Source: Rhodospirillaceae bacterium (GTDB lineage Bacteria; Pseudomonadota; Alphaproteobacteria; Rhodospirillales; Casp-alpha2). From it: 46,151 nucleotides of DNA. The stretch lies in contig JABJBP010000078.1 of assembly GCA_018665815.1 (NCBI GenBank), positions 1-46,151 on the forward strand, in the 5' to 3' direction. The position numbers and the translations under genes were made by a program. Shown piece after piece: positions 36,236-44,872 of the stretch (the first letter of the stretch is position 1; every line of letters begins with the position of its first letter). The notes beneath the pieces were generated by a model. The model was not told where the DNA came from. It did no database searches and worked only from the letters and a program-made list of their open reading frames with translations.

Positions 36236-37459
36236 ATGGACCAGGACTTTCATAAAATTAGGCGCCTGCCGCCATACGTATTTGCCGAAGTAAACAACAT
36301 GAAGGCCCGCGCCCGCGCCGCTGGCGAAGATATCATCGACTTCGGCATGGGGAATCCCGATCAGCCACCGGCCGAGCATATTGTTGAAAAGCTTCGCGAG
36401 ACGGTGCTCGATCCGAAGGTTCATCAGTATTCGAATTCGAGAGGCATTCCCGGCTTAAGGAAAGCCATTGCGGCCTATTATGAGCGCCGTTTTGGGGTCG
36501 ATGTTGATCCGGAAACGGAAGCCATTGTAACGCTGGGATCGAAAGAAGGGCTGGCCAATTTGTCATCGGCGATCACGACGCCGGGCGACGTCATTTTGGT
36601 GCCGAACCCCAGTTACCCCATTCACCAGTTTGGTTTCATCATTGCCGGCGCCGCCGTGCGCAATATTCCCGTCGAGCCCGGGCAAGGGTTCATGAAGGCG
36701 TTGGAGCGCGCGGTGCTGCACAGCGTGCCGAAGCCCACCGCACTGGTACTGAATTACCCCAACAATCCGACGGCCATCTGCGTTGACTTGGACTTCTATA
36801 CGGAAGTTGTCGATTTCTGCCATTTCCACGGCATTTATATTCTGTCTGATTTGGCTTATGCGGAACTTTATTATGACATCGCGCCGCCGCCTTCGATCCT
36901 CCAGATCCGGCGCGCCTGGGAAATCGCCGTTGAATTCACGTCCATGAGCAAAACCTATTCGATGCCCGGGTGGCGTATCGGTTTTGCCGCCGGTAACCCA
37001 CAACTGATCGGCGCCCTGGCGCGGGTTAAATCGTATCTAGATTACGGCGCTTTCACCCCCATTCAAGTGGCCGCGACAGCGGCGCTGAATGGTCCGCAAG
37101 ATTGCGTTGATGAGGTCCGTGCGCTTTACAAAGATCGCCGTGACGTGCTGGTCGAAGGCTTGGCTGCCGCCGGTTGGGACATCCCGGCACCGGACGCGAC
37201 GATGTTTGCATGGGCGCCGATCTCGCCGCAATTCGCCGACATGGGCTCGTTGGAGTTTTCGAAGTTCCTGCTCAGTGAGGCCAAGGTGGCGGTTTCACCG
37301 GGCATCGGTTTCGGCGAGCACGGCGAAGGTTACGTGCGAATAGCCTTGTGCGAGAATGCCCATCGAACCCGCCAGGCCATCCGGTCGATCAAGGCCATGA
37401 TGGGGCTTGGCAACAAAAAACGCGCACTAACGAAGCGCTCGAAAGCAGCTGCGGAATGA
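36236..37459 (+). CDS. Class I/II PLP aminotransferase (alanine / LL-diaminopimelate aminotransferase group)
   Basis: A 407-residue fold-type I aminotransferase. DFGMGNPDQP opens the substrate region, SKEGLANL follows near 103, NYPNNPTA near 175, SDLAYAELYYD near 205 and the PLP-binding Lys239 in SMSKTYSMPGWRIGF. This matches proteins annotated as LL-diaminopimelate aminotransferase or AlaC in alphaproteobacteria; the true amino donor cannot be told by eye. A short Lys/Arg-rich tail ends the protein. Its stop overlaps the hom start as ATGA, so the two are translationally coupled. Confidence 0.9.
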   Translation: MDQDFHKIRRLPPYVFAEVNNMKARARAAGEDIIDFGMGNPDQPPAEHIVEKLRETVLDPKVHQYSNSRGIPGLRKAIAAYYERRFGVDVDPETEAIVTLGSKEGLANLSSAITTPGDVILVPNPSYPIHQFGFIIAGAAVRNIPVEPGQGFMKALERAVLHSVPKPTALVLNYPNNPTAICVDLDFYTEVVDFCHFHGIYILSDLAYAELYYDIAPPPSILQIRRAWEIAVEFTSMSKTYSMPGWRIGFAAGNPQLIGALARVKSYLDYGAFTPIQVAATAALNGPQDCVDEVRALYKDRRDVLVEGLAAAGWDIPAPDATMFAWAPISPQFADMGSLEFSKFLLSEAKVAVSPGIGFGEHGEGYVRIALCENAHRTRQAIRSIKAMMGLGNKKRALTKRSKAAAE

Positions 37460-38748
37460 CAACACCTTTGAAAATCGGCATTGCCGGCCTGGGTACGGTC
37501 GGCGCCGGCACCGTCGATGTTCTCAATACCCATGGAACGCAGTTGATACATCGCGCAGGCCGGCCGCTTGAAATTACGGCGGTATCAGCCCGCGATAAAT
37601 CAAAGGACCGTGGCGTCGATCTATCCGGTGTGACTTGGCACGACGACCCCATAGCTTTGGCCAGTGATCCGAATGTTGATTTGGTTGCTGAATTGATCGG
37701 CGGGTCCGATGGTATAGCCAAGGATCTCTGCGAGGCGGCGTTGGCCGCCGGCAAGCATGTCGTGACCGCCAACAAGGCGCTGATCGCGCATCACGGCACG
37801 GTGCTGGCGGAAACCGCCGAAACAAATAGCGCATGTCTGGCCTATGAGGCAGCGGTCGCCGGCGGCATTCCGATCATTAAGGCTTTGCGTGAAGGCCTGG
37901 CTGCCAATCGCATCGACAGCCTCTATGGAATTCTCAACGGGACTTGCAATTATATCCTGACCAATATGGCCGAATCGGGACGCGAGTTTGAAGACGTGCT
38001 CGATGAAGCGCAGCAACTGGGTTATGCGGAAGCCGATCCGAGTTTCGATATCGACGGTGTCGATGCGGCCCACAAGCTGGCGATCCTGGCCAGCCTTGCC
38101 TTTGGCACGGCTGTAGATTTCGGCGGGGTTCACGTTGAGGGGATTCGCCATGTGTCGCCCATCGATATCGAATTTGCCGCCGAATTGGGGTATGGCATCA
38201 AGCTTCTGGGTGTTGCCCGGCGGACCGATGCCGGCATCGAACAGCGTGTGCACCCGTGCATGGTGCCGGTTGACGCGCCGATTAATCATGTGCGCGGCGT
38301 ATTCAATGCCGTTGAAGTTGTCGGCGATTTCGTCGATAGGACAATTTATCAAGGCCGTGGCGCCGGCGCCGGGCCGACGGCATCAGCGGTTGTTGCCGAT
38401 ATTATAGATATCGCACGTGGCGGCAGAGTGCCGGCCTTCGGCGTCCCGACGGCGGCCCTGAAGCCGGCGGCCACGGTGGCCATGGAAAGCCACCAAGGCC
38501 CTTATTACGTGCGTTTGATGGTGGTTGATGAGCCGGGCGTGTTCGCCGGCATCGCGGCTTCGCTTAGCGATCATAGCGTGTCGATGGAATCCGTCCTGCA
38601 ACGCGGTCGCGCGCCCGGTGAACCGGTGCCCGTGGTGATGACGGTCCATGACACCAAAGAGGCCGATATGGTGAAAACCCTTGATGATATCGCGGGCTTG
38701 AGTGCCGTAGTTGAGACGCCGCGCATGATCCGCATTGAGATGGTCTAA
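37456..38748 (+). CDS. hom: Homoserine dehydrogenase
   Basis: Reduces aspartate semialdehyde to homoserine for threonine and methionine. The 430-residue protein has the NAD(P) loop GLGTVGAG at residues 10-17, HVVTANKALIAHHG near 105, the homoserine-binding NGTCNYILT near 165, EADPSFDIDGVDAAHKLAIL near 200 and a C-terminal ACT domain (about 350-430) for feedback control by threonine. The start ATG 37456 overlaps the aminotransferase stop. This gene order with glpX and recJ downstream is common in alphaproteobacteria. Confidence 0.96.
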   Translation: MTTPLKIGIAGLGTVGAGTVDVLNTHGTQLIHRAGRPLEITAVSARDKSKDRGVDLSGVTWHDDPIALASDPNVDLVAELIGGSDGIAKDLCEAALAAGKHVVTANKALIAHHGTVLAETAETNSACLAYEAAVAGGIPIIKALREGLAANRIDSLYGILNGTCNYILTNMAESGREFEDVLDEAQQLGYAEADPSFDIDGVDAAHKLAILASLAFGTAVDFGGVHVEGIRHVSPIDIEFAAELGYGIKLLGVARRTDAGIEQRVHPCMVPVDAPINHVRGVFNAVEVVGDFVDRTIYQGRGAGAGPTASAVVADIIDIARGGRVPAFGVPTAALKPAATVAMESHQGPYYVRLMVVDEPGVFAGIAASLSDHSVSMESVLQRGRAPGEPVPVVMTVHDTKEADMVKTLDDIAGLSAVVETPRMIRIEMV

Positions 38749-38817
38749 AAACTTTCCGCTCTGGACCGGCGCCCATAGGCCGTTAAACGGTTGGCAAGAG
38801 CGGCACTTCGCGCCAAC

Positions 38818-39801
38818 ATGGCTCTTATGAACGAAACGTCCGCACCTGATCGAAATCTTGCACTGGAAGCGGTCCGCGCGACCGAGGCGGCTGCCATCGC
38901 GGCGGCCAGATTCCTGGGCGGCGGTGATGAGCGGGCCGCAGATGAAGCGGCGGTGTCGGCCATGCACCGGGCCCTTGGTAAATTTCAGGTCGAAGGCACC
39001 ATCCGCATCGGCGAGGCCGGCGGCGAAGGCTCAGGACCGCTATTCGCCGGCCAGCAAGTTGGTATGGACGGATTTCCGAAAGCCGATATTGCGCTGGTGG
39101 CGATTGAAGGCACCTCCATTGTCGCGCGTGGCGGCTATAATGCGATATCCGTTTTGGCCATGGCAGAAGAGGGCGGTTTCCTTGAGGTCCCCGATATTTA
39201 TATGGATAAGATCGCTGTCGGGGTCGGCATTTCGCCCGATGCGATCGATTTGGACAGGGATATTGCGGAAAACCTAGCCGCCGTCGCTGAGTCTAAAGGC
39301 GCCGCCGTTTCAGACTTGGTGGTCTGCCTTCTGGACCGGCCCAGGCATGGTCAATTGGTGGCGAAAATCAGGGATGCCGGAGCGCGCATTCAGTTGATTT
39401 TGGATGGTGACGTCAGCGGCGTTGTCGCCACCGGACTTCCCGAAAACTCCGTTGATATTTATGTCGGTATTGGTGGCGCTCGCCAGGGCGTGCTGGCGGC
39501 CGCCGCCTTGCGTGGCCTTGGCGGGCATATGCAGGGCCGACTGGTTATTCGCAGCGCTGTTGACGGTGCCAAGGCGCAAGCCTCCGGCATCGAAGATCCA
39601 GATTACAAATACGGCGTCGATGAGATGGCGCGCGGCCATGTGACGTTCGCCGCCACCGGAGTCACGCAAGGACCCTTGTTGGACGGCGTCCGCCTTTATC
39701 AGGGCAGTGCGATCACCCATTCCATGGTGATGCGTTCGCGGACCGGTACTTTTCGCTTTTTCGAAGGACACCATGACTTTACCCGGAGCCGAAAAGACTG
39801 A
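38818..39801 (+). CDS. glpX: GlpX-like protein, probably inactive as fructose-1,6-bisphosphatase
   Basis: A 327-residue protein clearly homologous over its full length to class II fructose-1,6-bisphosphatase and in the usual hom-glpX-recJ position. Key residues differ from E. coli GlpX as I recall it. GRGDKN becomes GGGDER (Lys29 replaced by Glu38). GEGEIDEAP becomes GEAGGEGSG. VDPIEGT becomes LVAIEGT (Asp85 replaced by Val94). GGAPEG becomes GGARQG (Glu213 replaced by Gln223). The DGDVSG and YMDKIAVG stretches remain. Loss of metal and catalytic residues predicts no FBPase activity, or a new role. The frame is intact and overlaps recJ by 29 bases. The start is chosen at ATG 38818; ATG 38827 is possible. 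Confidence 0.88.
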   Translation: MALMNETSAPDRNLALEAVRATEAAAIAAARFLGGGDERAADEAAVSAMHRALGKFQVEGTIRIGEAGGEGSGPLFAGQQVGMDGFPKADIALVAIEGTSIVARGGYNAISVLAMAEEGGFLEVPDIYMDKIAVGVGISPDAIDLDRDIAENLAAVAESKGAAVSDLVVCLLDRPRHGQLVAKIRDAGARIQLILDGDVSGVVATGLPENSVDIYVGIGGARQGVLAAAALRGLGGHMQGRLVIRSAVDGAKAQASGIEDPDYKYGVDEMARGHVTFAATGVTQGPLLDGVRLYQGSAITHSMVMRSRTGTFRFFEGHHDFTRSRKD

Positions 39802-41581
39802 CGCGATGACCGAGCCGGCGGCGTATCTGAACGTCGATCAATCCGCCGAAGGTCAGCGTTGGCTGTTGCGCGACACCGATGAGCGAACCGCATTGGCCTT
39901 ATCGCAGCGTCTGGACATACCGGATGCTGTTGGCCGGGTCATGGCGTCACGTGGAATTGGGTTGGACGATGGCGCATCGTTTCTGGCACCGACGCTTCGC
40001 GAACTCCTTCCCGACCCCAGTCATCTCAACGATATGGACGTCGCGGCAGAACGATTGGCCGCCGCGATTATGCAAGATGAAGGTCTGGCGGTTTTTGGTG
40101 ATTACGATGTCGATGGCGCGACGTCGTCGGCGCTGTTTAAACGGTTTGTTGAAAGTGTCGGGGGGCGGTGTCGGATTTATATTCCGGATCGGCTGCGCGA
40201 AGGTTATGGGCCGAACGCACCGGCGCTGCTGGAATTGGCCGAAGGCGGTGCTTCCGTGGTGGTCACCGTGGATTGCGGAACCGCCGCGCATGAACCACTT
40301 GCCGTGGTGCGCGACGCGGGCCTGGATGTGATCGTCGTTGATCATCATACGGCGGAAGCCCAGTTGCCGCCGGCGGTGGCGGTGATCAACCCGAACCGCT
40401 TAGATGATGACAGCGAGCACGGCCAGATGGCAGCGGTCGGCGTGGCGTTTTTGCTGATTGTCGCGGTTAACCGCACGCTCCGTGAGGCCGGCTGGTACAA
40501 GGATCGCCCGGAACCCGACCTCACTCAGTTTCTCGATTTGGTCGCATTGGGAACGGTTTGCGATGTGGTGCCATTGACAGGCGTGAACCGGGCCTTGGTG
40601 ACCCAAGGGTTGAAGGTTATCGGCCGTCGGCGTAACGCCGGCCTCCGAGCCCTGGCCGATGTCAGCGGCGTCAGCGAGATGCCGGAGGCCTATCATCTGG
40701 GGTTCGTTTTTGGCCCGCGGGTGAATGCTGGCGGCCGGGTAGGCGCCTCGGATTTGGGCGCGCAGTTGCTGACGACGGACGATCCCGCCGAGGCTAACAA
40801 GCTTGCCCAGCGTCTTGACACCTTCAACAGTGAACGCCGCGAGATTGAGGCGCAGGTCCTGGCCGAAGCCTTGGATTCGCTTATAGACAACCCGCCGGGT
40901 GCCGTCGTGTTCGCACTCGGCGAAGGCTGGCATCCGGGTGTCATCGGGATTGTCGCCAGCCGCCTGAAGGAACGCTACAACCGCCCGGCCTGCGTGATCG
41001 CGGTGGATAAGGAAACCGGGCTTGGTACCGGATCAGGACGCTCGGTTACCGGGGTTGATTTGGGCGCCGGCATCATCGCTGCGCGCCAGGCCGGATTATT
41101 GGAACGCGGTGGCGGGCATCGGATGGCGGCGGGATTTACGGTCACTGCCGATCAATTGACCGCCTTTCGAGCGTTTATGGATGAGCGCGTTGCCGAACGC
41201 GTCGAAGAGGCCGGGATTGTGCCGACCTTGCGTCTTGACGGCGCGGTGACGGCCATGGGCGCCAACTTGGAATTGATTGAAGCCTTGGAATGCCTGGGGC
41301 CCTTCGGCAGCGGCAACCCCGAACCCCGGTTTGTTATTCCGGCCGCCCGGATCACCTTTGCCGATGTGGTCGGTAAAGATCATGTGCGGTGCACGTTTGA
41401 GAGCCCCGAAGGCGGCACGCTGAAAGGTATTTGTTTTCGTTGCGTCGACCGCCCCATCGGTAAAGTGCTGCTGACGGCGGAAGGCCGACCGGTGCACGTC
41501 GCCGGGCGCCTCCGGGCAAATTCCTGGCAGGGCCGGACCAGTGCGCAACTGTTTGTCGATGATGCGGCGCCGTTGTGGTAA
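39773..41581 (+). CDS. recJ: Single-stranded-DNA-specific exonuclease RecJ
   Basis: A 5'-3' single-strand exonuclease of recombination and mismatch repair. The 602-residue protein has the DHH-family motifs GDYDVDGATS near 107, TVDCGTAAHEP near 165, VVDHHTAE near 190 and RVNAGGRVG near 320, the DHHA1 block GGGHRMAAGF near 450, and a C-terminal OB-fold. The start ATG 39773 lies inside the end of glpX with GAAGGA four bases before it, so it is probably coupled to glpX. ATG 39806, after the glpX stop, is a weaker alternative. Confidence 0.95.
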   Translation: MTLPGAEKTDAMTEPAAYLNVDQSAEGQRWLLRDTDERTALALSQRLDIPDAVGRVMASRGIGLDDGASFLAPTLRELLPDPSHLNDMDVAAERLAAAIMQDEGLAVFGDYDVDGATSSALFKRFVESVGGRCRIYIPDRLREGYGPNAPALLELAEGGASVVVTVDCGTAAHEPLAVVRDAGLDVIVVDHHTAEAQLPPAVAVINPNRLDDDSEHGQMAAVGVAFLLIVAVNRTLREAGWYKDRPEPDLTQFLDLVALGTVCDVVPLTGVNRALVTQGLKVIGRRRNAGLRALADVSGVSEMPEAYHLGFVFGPRVNAGGRVGASDLGAQLLTTDDPAEANKLAQRLDTFNSERREIEAQVLAEALDSLIDNPPGAVVFALGEGWHPGVIGIVASRLKERYNRPACVIAVDKETGLGTGSGRSVTGVDLGAGIIAARQAGLLERGGGHRMAAGFTVTADQLTAFRAFMDERVAERVEEAGIVPTLRLDGAVTAMGANLELIEALECLGPFGSGNPEPRFVIPAARITFADVVGKDHVRCTFESPEGGTLKGICFRCVDRPIGKVLLTAEGRPVHVAGRLRANSWQGRTSAQLFVDDAAPLW

Positions 41582-41615
41582 ATATTGATGAGGCAATTTG
41601 AAGGAAGGGCGCCGA

Positions 41616-42059
41616 ATGCTTGATAAATGGGACCAGCGGTTCATGGATTTGGCGACCTTTGTGGCCGGGTGGTCGAAGGACCCATCGACCCAGGTCGGTG
41701 CGGTGATTGCCAATGCGAATACCAAACGCGTCGTATCCATGGGATTTAACGGATTTCCAGCCGGCGTCGAAGACACGGCGGAGCGCCTGGAAACCCGTGA
41801 AATCAAGTATGAAATGGTCGTTCATGCGGAAGCCAATGCGTTGCTGTTTGCCGGGCCGGCGGCGGAAGGATGCACACTGTATGTTACGCCCTTGCCACCT
41901 TGCGCACGGTGCGCCGTGTTGGTGATCCAATCGGGCATTTCGCGTGTTGTTTGCCCGACACCTGATAAATCGAAAGAACCTTGGGCGACGCAAAGCCGGA
42001 TATCGGAAGCCATGTTCGGCGAAGCCAAGGTGCATCTGGATTACGTCGATCTGGATTGA
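41616..42059 (+). CDS. dCMP deaminase-type zinc deaminase
   Basis: A 147-residue cytidine/deoxycytidylate deaminase-family enzyme. The zinc site is HAEANAL near residue 71 (His ligand and catalytic Glu) and PLPPCARC near 93 (two Cys ligands). SKDPSTQVGAVI and SMGFNGFPAG are dCMP-deaminase hallmarks, which favours dCMP to dUMP for thymidylate supply. AAGGAAGGG lies before the ATG at 41616. 35 bases after recJ, so probably in its transcript. Confidence 0.93.
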   Translation: MLDKWDQRFMDLATFVAGWSKDPSTQVGAVIANANTKRVVSMGFNGFPAGVEDTAERLETREIKYEMVVHAEANALLFAGPAAEGCTLYVTPLPPCARCAVLVIQSGISRVVCPTPDKSKEPWATQSRISEAMFGEAKVHLDYVDLD

Positions 42060-42772: not shown

Positions 42773-43420
42773 TCAATTGTCTTCCAATTCAACAAGCCCT
42801 TTGCCGGGACAATAAGTGTAGTTGTTGTCGTCGCGTTGCTTATTTTTGCCCGGCTTGGCCGTTGTCCATCGAAACTTCAGGCAGTGTTTGATACCGTGCG
42901 CCTCGAAATCAAGCTTGAGAATTTCGATGGTCATGCGCCGCAAGTATGACTTGCCGGTGGGCTTGGCATATTTCGCAAGGAACGCGCGTTTCTCAAATTC
43001 CCGCCATGTGCCCAGGGGAAATTTAGCACCGCCGACAATGCTTGTCTGATAGCGCGGGTCATACACCCGGCCCAGCGCCGCACCATCGTGATTGACGGCG
43101 AACAACTGCTTTTTGTTCTGCGTGGTGTGGGTGCGCTCATAGATTTTGATTTGATTGCCGCTCACAGGGGCCGTCCAATCGACAGGGCCGGAAATCCTTT
43201 TTCGGCCATCACCAAATGTCAGATCCGCATCGGTCATCGTGATCTCGAAGGAGCCATTCCAGGGCGCGCCTGTCCAAAGTTGGACGGAAATAAACCGGCT
43301 GCCGGCGGCGGCGTTGATTGATTTATCCTACGGATCGGCCCTGACCGTCGACGATAATGCGCCCAAAGCCAATAGGGCGCTCAGGGTGAATGCGATGGTC
43401 GCGGTCAGCGTCCGCGTCAC
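42773..43420 (-). pseudogene. Secreted-protein gene interrupted by an in-frame TAG, coupled to the PFK gene
   Basis: The uninterrupted frame 43237-42773 encodes 154 residues and looks N-truncated. The same frame continues upstream to a TAG at 43330-43328. Before that lie 30 codons from GTG 43420 that encode a clear signal peptide (VTRTLTATIAF, hydrophobic core, then STVRADP). The GTG overlaps the PFK stop as GTGA. So the ancestral gene ran 43420-42773, with a cleavage site just before the TAG. The mature part begins DKSINAAAGSRF and contains FEITMTDADLTFG and KHCLKFRW; I do not recognise the family. It may be a pseudogene, a suppressed stop, a start downstream of the TAG, or a sequence error. 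Confidence 0.7.
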
Positions 43421-44625
43421 CGGCCCAAAACCTTGGGGATGCTCGGTGCGCGAAGGCGGTGCGCTTCGGGCATCGGGCCGACCAGGGGCCTGGCATAATC
43501 GAGGAATGCCGGCGTCACATCGGTGCCCGACGCGGCAATCAAGGCGTCATCCATGACCTTGGTTTTAGCGGCGACATCGGTGAGATCGTTCAATCGGTAT
43601 TCCACGGCATAATCCCCGACTCGGTTGATGGTCACCGTGCCGTTGCGCGCCCTCGTGGCTGCAAACTGCACGGCACGGTTGCCGACTTCGCGGGCCTCGC
43701 GCTGGTCAACTTCCGACACGCAGCCCAGGAATGAGCGTTGCAGATACCCGAACGTGTCGCCGCGTACGCGTTTGATGTCGGTGTTTTGCTTAATGGCGTT
43801 GGTCAACAGATCCGCCAACGCGCCGGTGCCTGAAAGCTGCACGTTGCCGTGCGCATCTTTTTCGACGTCGGCTGCAAGTTTGGTCAAAATCGGCGTGCCG
43901 TCGGCATCGTGTATGCCTTCGGATACCGCGATGACACAGCGCCCGTATTTGTCATGGACGGCTTTTACATCGTTGGTGAACGCGTCCATATCGAAACTGC
44001 GTTCCGGCAGATAAATCAAATGCGGGCCGTCGTCCGGATAGTGCCGCGCCAGCGCGCCGGCGGCGGTCAGGAAGCCGGCATGGCGCCCCATGACGACGCC
44101 GACATAGACGCCCGGTAGGGCACGGTTGTCCAAATTCACCCCAGCGAAACTCGACGCCACAAACTTTGCCGCCGACGGGAACCCCGGTGTGTGGTCATTG
44201 ACCATCAGGTCATTATCAATGGTTTTTGGAATATGGACGCAGCGCAGCGCGTAATTCACCTTCACTGCTTCTTCGGAAAGAATGCGCAATGTGTCGGACG
44301 AATCGTTGCCGCCAATATAGAAAAACGTGCCGATCCCGTGCGCCTGCAACACCTTGAATATTTCCTGACAGTACGCCAAGTCCGGTTTGTCGCGCGTGGA
44401 TCCCAATGCTGAGCACGGCGTATTGGCTACCAATTCTAAATGGGCGTCGGTTTCCTGCGCCAGGTCGACGAAATCCTCGTTGATGATGCCGCTGACGCCG
44501 AGCATGGCGCCAAGGACACCTTCAGCGCCCATACGCCGCGCCTCCAATACAGCGCCGACAAGGGATTGGTTGATAACCGCCGTCGGGCCGCCGCCCTGGG
44601 CAATGAGAACTTTACCTTGCAGCAT
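43417..44625 (-). CDS. pfp: 6-phosphofructokinase, pyrophosphate-dependent type
   Basis: A 402-residue phosphofructokinase. IAQGGGPTAVINQS is the N-terminal phosphate loop. YIGGNDSSDT near 105 has Asp where ATP enzymes have Gly, and IPKTIDNDL has Lys where ATP enzymes have Gly. Both are the marks of PPi-using PFKs. GRHAGFLTA is the MGR sugar site. Such enzymes are reversible, interconverting fructose 6-phosphate and the 1,6-bisphosphate. ATG 44625 has AAAGG nine bases before it; GTG 44631 is two codons upstream. The stop overlaps the downstream broken secreted-protein gene. Confidence 0.93.
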   Translation of the reverse strand: MLQGKVLIAQGGGPTAVINQSLVGAVLEARRMGAEGVLGAMLGVSGIINEDFVDLAQETDAHLELVANTPCSALGSTRDKPDLAYCQEIFKVLQAHGIGTFFYIGGNDSSDTLRILSEEAVKVNYALRCVHIPKTIDNDLMVNDHTPGFPSAAKFVASSFAGVNLDNRALPGVYVGVVMGRHAGFLTAAGALARHYPDDGPHLIYLPERSFDMDAFTNDVKAVHDKYGRCVIAVSEGIHDADGTPILTKLAADVEKDAHGNVQLSGTGALADLLTNAIKQNTDIKRVRGDTFGYLQRSFLGCVSEVDQREAREVGNRAVQFAATRARNGTVTINRVGDYAVEYRLNDLTDVAAKTKVMDDALIAASGTDVTPAFLDYARPLVGPMPEAHRLRAPSIPKVLGR

Positions 44626-44872
44626 GGACACGCACCTTTCGTTCGCTGTTCGAAAACCCTGTAAATGCGACGATTGCCGCTGGGAAATCCCTATTGGCGG
44701 CGTTTGCAGCCACGATCGATATTAGAAAGCGCCGGGGTTTGAGGAAAGGCCCAATCAGCGCATCGGACATCTGATGGGCAGCCGATTTCGGAGATATGAA
44801 AATAACTTAGTAATATCGATGCTTTTTGATCTTGATTTCTATGTCCGGGACGGCTACCTACTCGCGCTACGC

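Follow-up and report, generated by a model that had tools for sequence, protein, structure and literature searches.

Analysis of the window, by which we mean the whole stretch of 46,151 nucleotides, revealed that its glpX-like gene (38818..39801, + strand; 327 aa plus stop) encodes a member of a known family, class II fructose-1,6-bisphosphatase (FBPase), whose active site has degenerated. At a probability of roughly 0.6, we read the product as a class II FBPase that lost catalysis at its ancestral locus and was retained as a sugar-phosphate-binding pseudoenzyme. In pseudoenzymes in general, catalytic residues have been lost and the binding site and fold are kept. The loss of catalysis is well supported by the residues found in the protein and its relatives, and the window protein very probably lacks FBPase activity. 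A non-catalytic binding role of the degenerate GlpX appears slightly favoured over its absence, and the neighbouring pyrophosphate (PPi)-dependent phosphofructokinase (PFP) probably acts in the gluconeogenic direction.

Fold and active site of the window protein

The frame at 38818-39801 contains no internal stop, and an alternative start is available at an in-frame TTG at 38791. Profile PF03320 covers residues 12-319 of 327 over its entire length (profile 1-307/307; E 7.5e-110, 367.1 bits against a cut-off of 27), in agreement with the end-to-end alignment with class II FBPase described in an earlier note on this DNA. An AlphaFold2 model built from a 35-row alignment reached a pLDDT of 91.1 and a pTM of 0.89 and matched the F. 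tularensis structure 7js3 (TM 0.90, 1.8 Å) and the substrate-bound E. coli structure 3d1r (TM 0.91, 1.3 Å), which indicates that the GlpX fold is present in the predicted structure. The window protein thereby shares end-to-end homology, the predicted fold and the 6-phosphate and furanose pockets with the class II FBPase GlpX of E. coli (3d1r/2r8t), F. tularensis (7js3/7txg) and M. tuberculosis (6ayy/7txb). The model TIGR00330 ('class II fructose-bisphosphatase') is passed by a margin of 2.4 bits (261.7 bits vs a cut-off of 259.3); it is an equivalog model, and automatic annotation would label the window protein a class II FBPase.

The catalytic site of E. coli GlpX, as listed in PMC5892879, consists of D33, E57, D85, E88, T90, Y119, K164, R166, D188 and E213. 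According to the same account, D85 and E213 hold one metal, at the position of the Mg that lies close to the 1-phosphate in M. tuberculosis, D33 and E57 hold the second, and the M. tuberculosis counterpart side chains are Asp79/Asp82/Glu208 (PMC5892879). For F. tularensis GlpX, the Asp is described as a side-chain ligand of M1 with Glu57 as its apical ligand, and Thr89 (E. coli T90) is the proposed nucleophile, the T89A variant being dead; RPR is assigned to the 6-phosphate pocket and IxDGD to the furanose motif (PMC10289334).

Alignment of the window protein to E. coli K-12 GlpX, taken from NC_000913 as the residue reference, reproduced the letters given in the earlier note: K29 corresponds to E38, D85 to V94 and E213 to Q223, and GEGEIDEAP reads GEAGGEGSG. 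Thus, Val stands for the catalytic metal ligand Asp85 at codon 94 (39097..39099, + strand; ligand role as described in PMC5892879 and PMC10289334), and Gln stands for the metal ligand Glu213 at codon 223 (39484..39486, + strand; role as described in PMC5892879). In the lid (codons 65-73, 39010..39036, + strand), E57 is kept and E59, D61, A63 and P64 are changed. Eight of the ten residues listed in PMC5892879 are retained in the window copy, namely D33, E57, E88, T90 (the nucleophile, here T99), Y119, K164 as Arg, R166 and D188; the two lost ones, D85 and E213, are those whose side chains bind the metal next to the 1-phosphate. The DEAP lid motif and the D85/E213 metal ligands of a working FBPase II are therefore absent, and the 6-phosphate motif RPR (R174, R176; RPRH at 39337..39348, + strand) and the furanose motif IxDGD (as ILDGD; ILDGDV at 39397..39414, + strand) are present, with pocket roles as described in PMC10289334. 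Only for Lys29, which had been counted among the lost catalytic residues, did the earlier reading fail: Glu at this position (codon 38, 38929..38931, + strand) is ordinary in alphaproteobacterial GlpX, being the residue in 64 of 77 canonical copies, and Lys29 is missing from the catalytic list in PMC5892879. K29→E as a catalytic loss is ruled out by its being the usual state among canonical relatives.

The degenerate clade

The residue changes seen in a single protein are real, but they do not concern one gene. Among 61 genomes, comprising the window's own and 60 relatives, PF03320 was present in 56, and the window's type of GlpX, separated from a second type (group B) by sequence and here termed group A, was complete in 49. 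D85 is missing in 45 of these 49 copies, and E213 is missing as well in 38 of the 45, so that the loss of the catalytic metal site, D85→V and E213→Q in the window, is confirmed as a state shared across a clade. The 45 D85-less copies span 12 families of one order; sequencing error, chance and decay in one genome are ruled out as explanations by this pattern common to many genomes. A scan of named genomes, in which the canonical sample consists of near relatives, showed D85 in 76 and its absence in four (L074, L075, L084, L131) of the best 80 loci listed. The protein of L074 is identical to L024, being the same protein as the copy of genome G033, and the degenerate copies among the named records come from MAGs that carry the labels Rhodospirillaceae, Alphaproteobacteria or Proteobacteria.

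Whether the changes form a clade, as the earlier note had asked, was answered by the tree of homologues, in which the degenerate copies and a few intermediates group together. In total, 51 rows form one group with an SH-aLRT support of 96, 48 of them without D85 and three with it (L003, L005, L009); L004 lies outside this group in the full tree, on a long branch. After removal of 49 active-site columns, 51 degenerate and intermediate rows remained exclusive at a support of 79, now with L004 inside and the duplicate L074 left out. An artefact of shared active-site changes is rejected by this persistence, although support drops from 96 to 79. The canonical copy of G055 (L002) and its named sister L078 fall outside the degenerate clade, within which branches are longer.

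Residue counts were obtained for 44 clearly degenerate copies and 77 canonical ones, excluding 14 group B copies, the E. coli sequence, L074, five fragments (L068, L069 twice, L070, L071) and seven intermediate or long-branch copies (L003, L004, L005, L006, L009, L055 and L131, with D, E, D, C, D, N and N at position 85, respectively). In the degenerate copies, a group defined by the absent Asp, position 85 is exclusively V (26), L (9) or M (9). E213 is retained in four of the 44 and replaced by Gln in the other 40; T90 is retained in nine and otherwise reads K (19), P (9), A (5) or S (2), hence is lost in 35 of 44 counting Ser; and of the lid, D61 is kept in 5/43, E59 in 7/43 and P64 in 1/44. 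By comparison, T90, E213, D61 and P64 are each found in 77/77 canonical copies. All 44 degenerate copies retain D33, E88, G89, Y119, both arginines of the 6-phosphate pocket (R164, R166), G187 and D188; E57 is kept in 41, and D186 in 37 with Gly in the other seven. Expressed over columns that are nearly invariant in the canonical set and leaving D85 out, retention falls below half in seven of ten metal, nucleophile and lid columns vs none of six binding columns, both sets having been hand-picked from published roles after the residue table had been seen. These counts suggest that the degenerate protein retains its ligand pocket and gives up the chemistry.

It is unlikely, in our view, that the protein is still an enzyme, be it a phosphatase with a metal site rearranged towards the D33/E57/E88 side or one with a new substrate. 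Residual or altered activity would be conceivable because D33, E57 and E88 are present, as is T90 in the window copy, so that the second metal site could persist, and in the rearranged-site version the Lys at position 90 of many relatives would replace a metal charge. Gln213, Thr279 (in all copies) and the aliphatic-only position 85, to which the left-out intermediates add two N, one C, one E and three D, look selected rather than drifted. However, the four newly conserved columns of the degenerate copies (S102, V115, Q213 and T279) hold no acidic residue, the nucleophile position varies between T, K and P within the window's own genus, and a T-to-A change that abolishes activity in two characterised class II FBPases (PMC10289334) occurs naturally in five of the 44 copies.

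A second GlpX, group B, occurs in the same order (L013, L036, L054, L056, L057, L058, L060-L067). D85, E88, T90 and E213 are kept in 14/14 of the copies counted, D33 is changed in 8/14, E57 is replaced by Asp in 7/14, DEAP is intact in only 2/14, and D186 is Ala or Gly in 14/14. Group B has thus often lost the other metal side, an erosion complementary to that of group A. The group B glpX at L069 (G024:C4) is broken into two frames that overlap, which may reflect a frameshift or decay.

Phosphofructokinase and other fructose bisphosphatases

Downstream of the glpX locus, the gene at 43417..44631 (− strand) encodes the sole PF00365 match of the window's genome. Its product exceeds the family cut-off of NF010675, the model for diphosphate--fructose-6-phosphate 1-phosphotransferase (468.3 bits vs 273), and carries the PPi-type active-site motifs IGGNDS and PKTIDND, and is accordingly predicted to be a PPi-dependent phosphofructokinase; the structures nearest to it are solved PPi-PFKs (3hno, 3k2q), and it matches this NF010675-type enzyme in family and PPi signatures. 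It differs from the described system in that the motif reads GGND rather than GGDD and in that the gene adjoins a degenerate FBPase gene. GGDD and PKTIDXD are given as PPi signatures, with the Lys alone not being decisive, and the PPi-PFK reaction is described as readily reversible and its enzymes as typically non-allosteric (PMC12203962).

The same arrangement, with PFP convergent downstream of the glpX locus, was found in 23 genomes, 22 of which carry a complete D85-less GlpX and one (G048) a glpX fragment only. A further 10 genomes have a class I fbp downstream of recJ, on the glpX strand (L040, L042, L046, L047, L049, L052, L053, L192-L194), with an intact FDPLDGSSN motif in 10/10 and a D85-less GlpX beside it. 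Around the 76 canonical named glpX genes from the best 80 loci listed, the stretches read contained neither PFP nor fbp (0 and 0); recJ together with 4 kb or more of downstream sequence was available for 38 of the 76, the remainder being a partial test. Whole genomes were compared for 50 of the best 80 named loci listed, i.e. four degenerate and 46 canonical genomes, and window-type PFP was present in 4/4 vs 1/46, the canonical exception being Pelagibius (G076), which combines an intact GlpX with a window-type PFP. Class I fbp scored over its cut-off in 7/46 of these canonical genomes, with GlpX intact, and in 1/4 of the degenerate ones.

Within the order, 41 of the 45 D85-less genomes carry a window-type PFP or a class I fbp. 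G003, G014 and G035 showed neither gene, and their contigs stop within the deaminase gene or recJ, short of the position at which PFP or fbp would lie; in G007, which is D85-less and 67% complete, 411 bases beyond the deaminase gene contain neither. Compared with the 46 canonical named genomes, Fisher's test gave 3e-13 for the presence of PFP or fbp and 1e-9 for that of PFP alone; these values are descriptive only, as the degenerate genomes amount in essence to a single clade and are hence not independent. Phosphofructokinases were classed by hand from bit scores (window-type about 130-180 when complete, the other type about 280-340). Window-type status was also assigned to the partial matches of G015 and G048, for which the sequence confirmed it; a second, partial match in G056 (115.8 bits) and a partial other-type match in G060 were classed by score only, and the G091 match (two pieces of 111.7 and 86.1 bits) was left unclassed.

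Taken together, the position of PFP as the only phosphofructokinase of the genome and the association of PFP or fbp with D85-less copies lend support to the suggestion, made in the earlier note, that the PPi-type enzyme at 43417 makes FBPase dispensable. An obligate partnership between dead GlpX and PFP is ruled out, for genomes with class I fbp and without window-type PFP (G005, G009, G010 and others) retain the degenerate protein as well; a link between the two is attractive, though not as an obligate one.

The genomes of the order cover a range of GlpX states. G055, which is 100% complete, has neither class I fbp nor window-type PFP, and its GlpX is intact; it is the sole genome of the 61 that is more than 93% complete and lacks both genes. 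G039 and G058 keep D85, T90, E213 and E57 with the DEAP lid gone, and G049 keeps D85 with T90 and E213 gone, all three with a window-type PFP. G053 and G054 gave no PF03320 and no PF00316 match, and PFP is present. Overall, PFP, class I fbp or a group A GlpX with D85, T90, E213 and E57 was found in 56/61 genomes, the five without any of them being 67-93% complete. In 18/61 genomes, eight of which are at least 94% complete, a window-type PFP is the sole phosphofructokinase, class I Fbp and a second GlpX are absent, and the group A GlpX is degenerate or absent.

A search of the window's genome for another fbp or glpX, as the earlier note had proposed, returned the window GlpX as the single PF03320 match; FBPases of classes I, III and V were not found, with zero matches to the profiles PF00316, PF01950 and PF06874. 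A single gene of the class II aldolase family scores above its cut-off in this genome, which also contains a PPDK_N-domain gene, either PPDK or PEP synthase. We consider it rather unlikely that gluconeogenesis runs through an unrecognised FBPase instead of PFP, such as a member of the inositol-monophosphatase family (class IV) or a Bbp-like broad histidine phosphatase, and such an enzyme could exist together with a GlpX pseudoenzyme. Candidates are at hand in five PF00459 stretches and four PF00300 matches, and Brucella Bbp offers a precedent (described in PMC11005471), but all five PF00459 stretches score below the cut-off for bifunctional FBPase/IMPase (best 155.9 vs 264 bits, scored on domain stretches only, which lowers the values).

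The locus and selection on the gene

In line with the conserved locus named in the earlier note, the window glpX lies between hom and recJ, the place that canonical alphaproteobacterial glpX genes occupy. An aminotransferase gene upstream of hom, a conserved member of the locus (36236..37459, + strand; NF006604 LL-diaminopimelate aminotransferase, 699 bits), is followed by hom, encoding homoserine dehydrogenase (37348..38748, + strand; ORF from GTG 37348, NF004976 542 bits, the searches having used the part from 37450), and, beyond glpX, by recJ for the single-strand DNA exonuclease (39773..41581, + strand; TIGR00644 536 bits). The overlap of glpX with recJ stands if recJ starts at ATG 39773 and falls if it starts at ATG 39806. 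There is an opposite-strand gene upstream of the window glpX, which we take to be phaC. A deaminase-like protein is encoded between recJ and PFP (41598..42059, + strand); many of the genomes have this gene there, with PFP or fbp beyond it, and it gave weak family matches only.

In the stretches read, both hom and recJ adjoin 40 of the 49 group A copies and at least one of them adjoins 48, G049 having neither; both lie in the stretch of 54/76 canonical named loci among the best 80 listed. Two MAG contigs titled Candidatus Marinimicrobia (L077, L083) contain a hom-glpX-recJ locus of alphaproteobacterial type with GlpX proteins that group with Rhodospirillaceae-labelled records; these bins are probably mislabelled or contaminated. 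In G037, G041 and G050 (L203, L204, L206), hom lies next to recJ, beside PFP, and glpX is gone, with no convincing glpX remnant at the hom-recJ junction, an apparent clean loss at the same locus.

Pairwise dN/dS values of glpX, calculated on stop-to-stop frames for the first six pairs per group, lie at 0.03-0.28 and in the range of hom and recJ from the same genomes, many dS values being saturated; the window's own values come from two pairs only, both with saturated dS. Third-position GC is similar, at 0.63 for glpX vs 0.64 and 0.68 for its neighbours. The statement of the earlier note, which had also suggested measuring dN/dS, that this is 'not simple decay' is supported, as the gene is intact, constrained and at a conserved place. 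A loss of essential catalytic residues that is shared by a clade under purifying selection, the mark of a pseudoenzyme, is what the sequences indicate here.

That the gene is instead a vestige under weak constraint, lingering through its place between hom and recJ, seems improbable to us. glpX does appear dispensable in places, given its absence from the junction in the three genomes above and the lack of a group A copy in 8/38 PFP genomes, and the longer branches of the clade fit relaxed constraint. However, no stop interrupts any PF03320 match in the 61 genomes, dN/dS is like that of the flanking hom and recJ, binding residues were kept while metal and lid residues went, and D85-less copies occur in 12 families. 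An ordinary active FBPase that tolerates its residue differences is very improbable, since, despite the eight of ten catalytic residues including T90 in the window copy and the narrowly passed TIGR00330 cut-off, the side-chain ligands D85 and E213 and the lid are gone, and T90, E213, D61 and P64 are universal in the canonical set.

A possible course of events and its significance

The reading of GlpX as a retained, non-catalytic binding protein would be accommodated by the following course of events, in which PFP gain precedes GlpX loss. An ancestor with an ordinary alphaproteobacterial hom-glpX-recJ locus and an intact GlpX may have acquired a PPi-dependent phosphofructokinase beside the locus (other branches have a class I fbp there), and with it a second route from fructose 1,6-bisphosphate to fructose 6-phosphate. 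With PFP present, hydrolysis by GlpX would be unneeded and could waste fructose 1,6-bisphosphate, which the loss of the catalytic metal would end. Loss of D85 and E213, which bind the catalytic metal, and of the lid would then have followed, as would loss of the nucleophile T90 in many lines, with purifying selection holding the fold and the 6-phosphate and furanose pockets, so that the protein has most likely remained able to bind fructose phosphates. Because it stayed with its pocket intact, a sensing or binding role for fructose phosphates is suggested, and the degenerate GlpX may act as a sensor or partner protein in place of turnover; if it regulates something, PFP would be one candidate partner.

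No GlpX pseudoenzyme was found in searches of open-access full texts. The GlpX of Brucella suis biovar 5 is reported to be non-functional, with other enzymes supporting gluconeogenesis; it carries two substitutions, of which Arg316Pro is thought to cause misfolding, and the B. abortus GlpX is active (as described in PMC11005471). Unlike this case, the loss of the metal site reported here is clade-wide, and the protein is predicted to fold well.

The window case illustrates that an automatic 'class II FBPase' label can misstate metabolism. A 2025 review treats it as undetermined whether there is an organism in which PFP is the principal enzyme for both directions. With GlpX intact in some genomes and intermediate, degenerate or deleted in others, the clade shows what looks like a predicted inactivation of FBPase and makes this question testable. 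A tentative and rather doubtful extension would be that this lineage of Alphaproteobacteria carries out the step between fructose 6-phosphate and fructose 1,6-bisphosphate in both directions by PPi-PFK alone, with no working FBPase, and that the old FBPase serves as a fructose-phosphate sensor supplying the regulation that the typically non-allosteric PPi-PFK lacks. The degenerate GlpX clade may represent a possible family of sugar-phosphate sensors.
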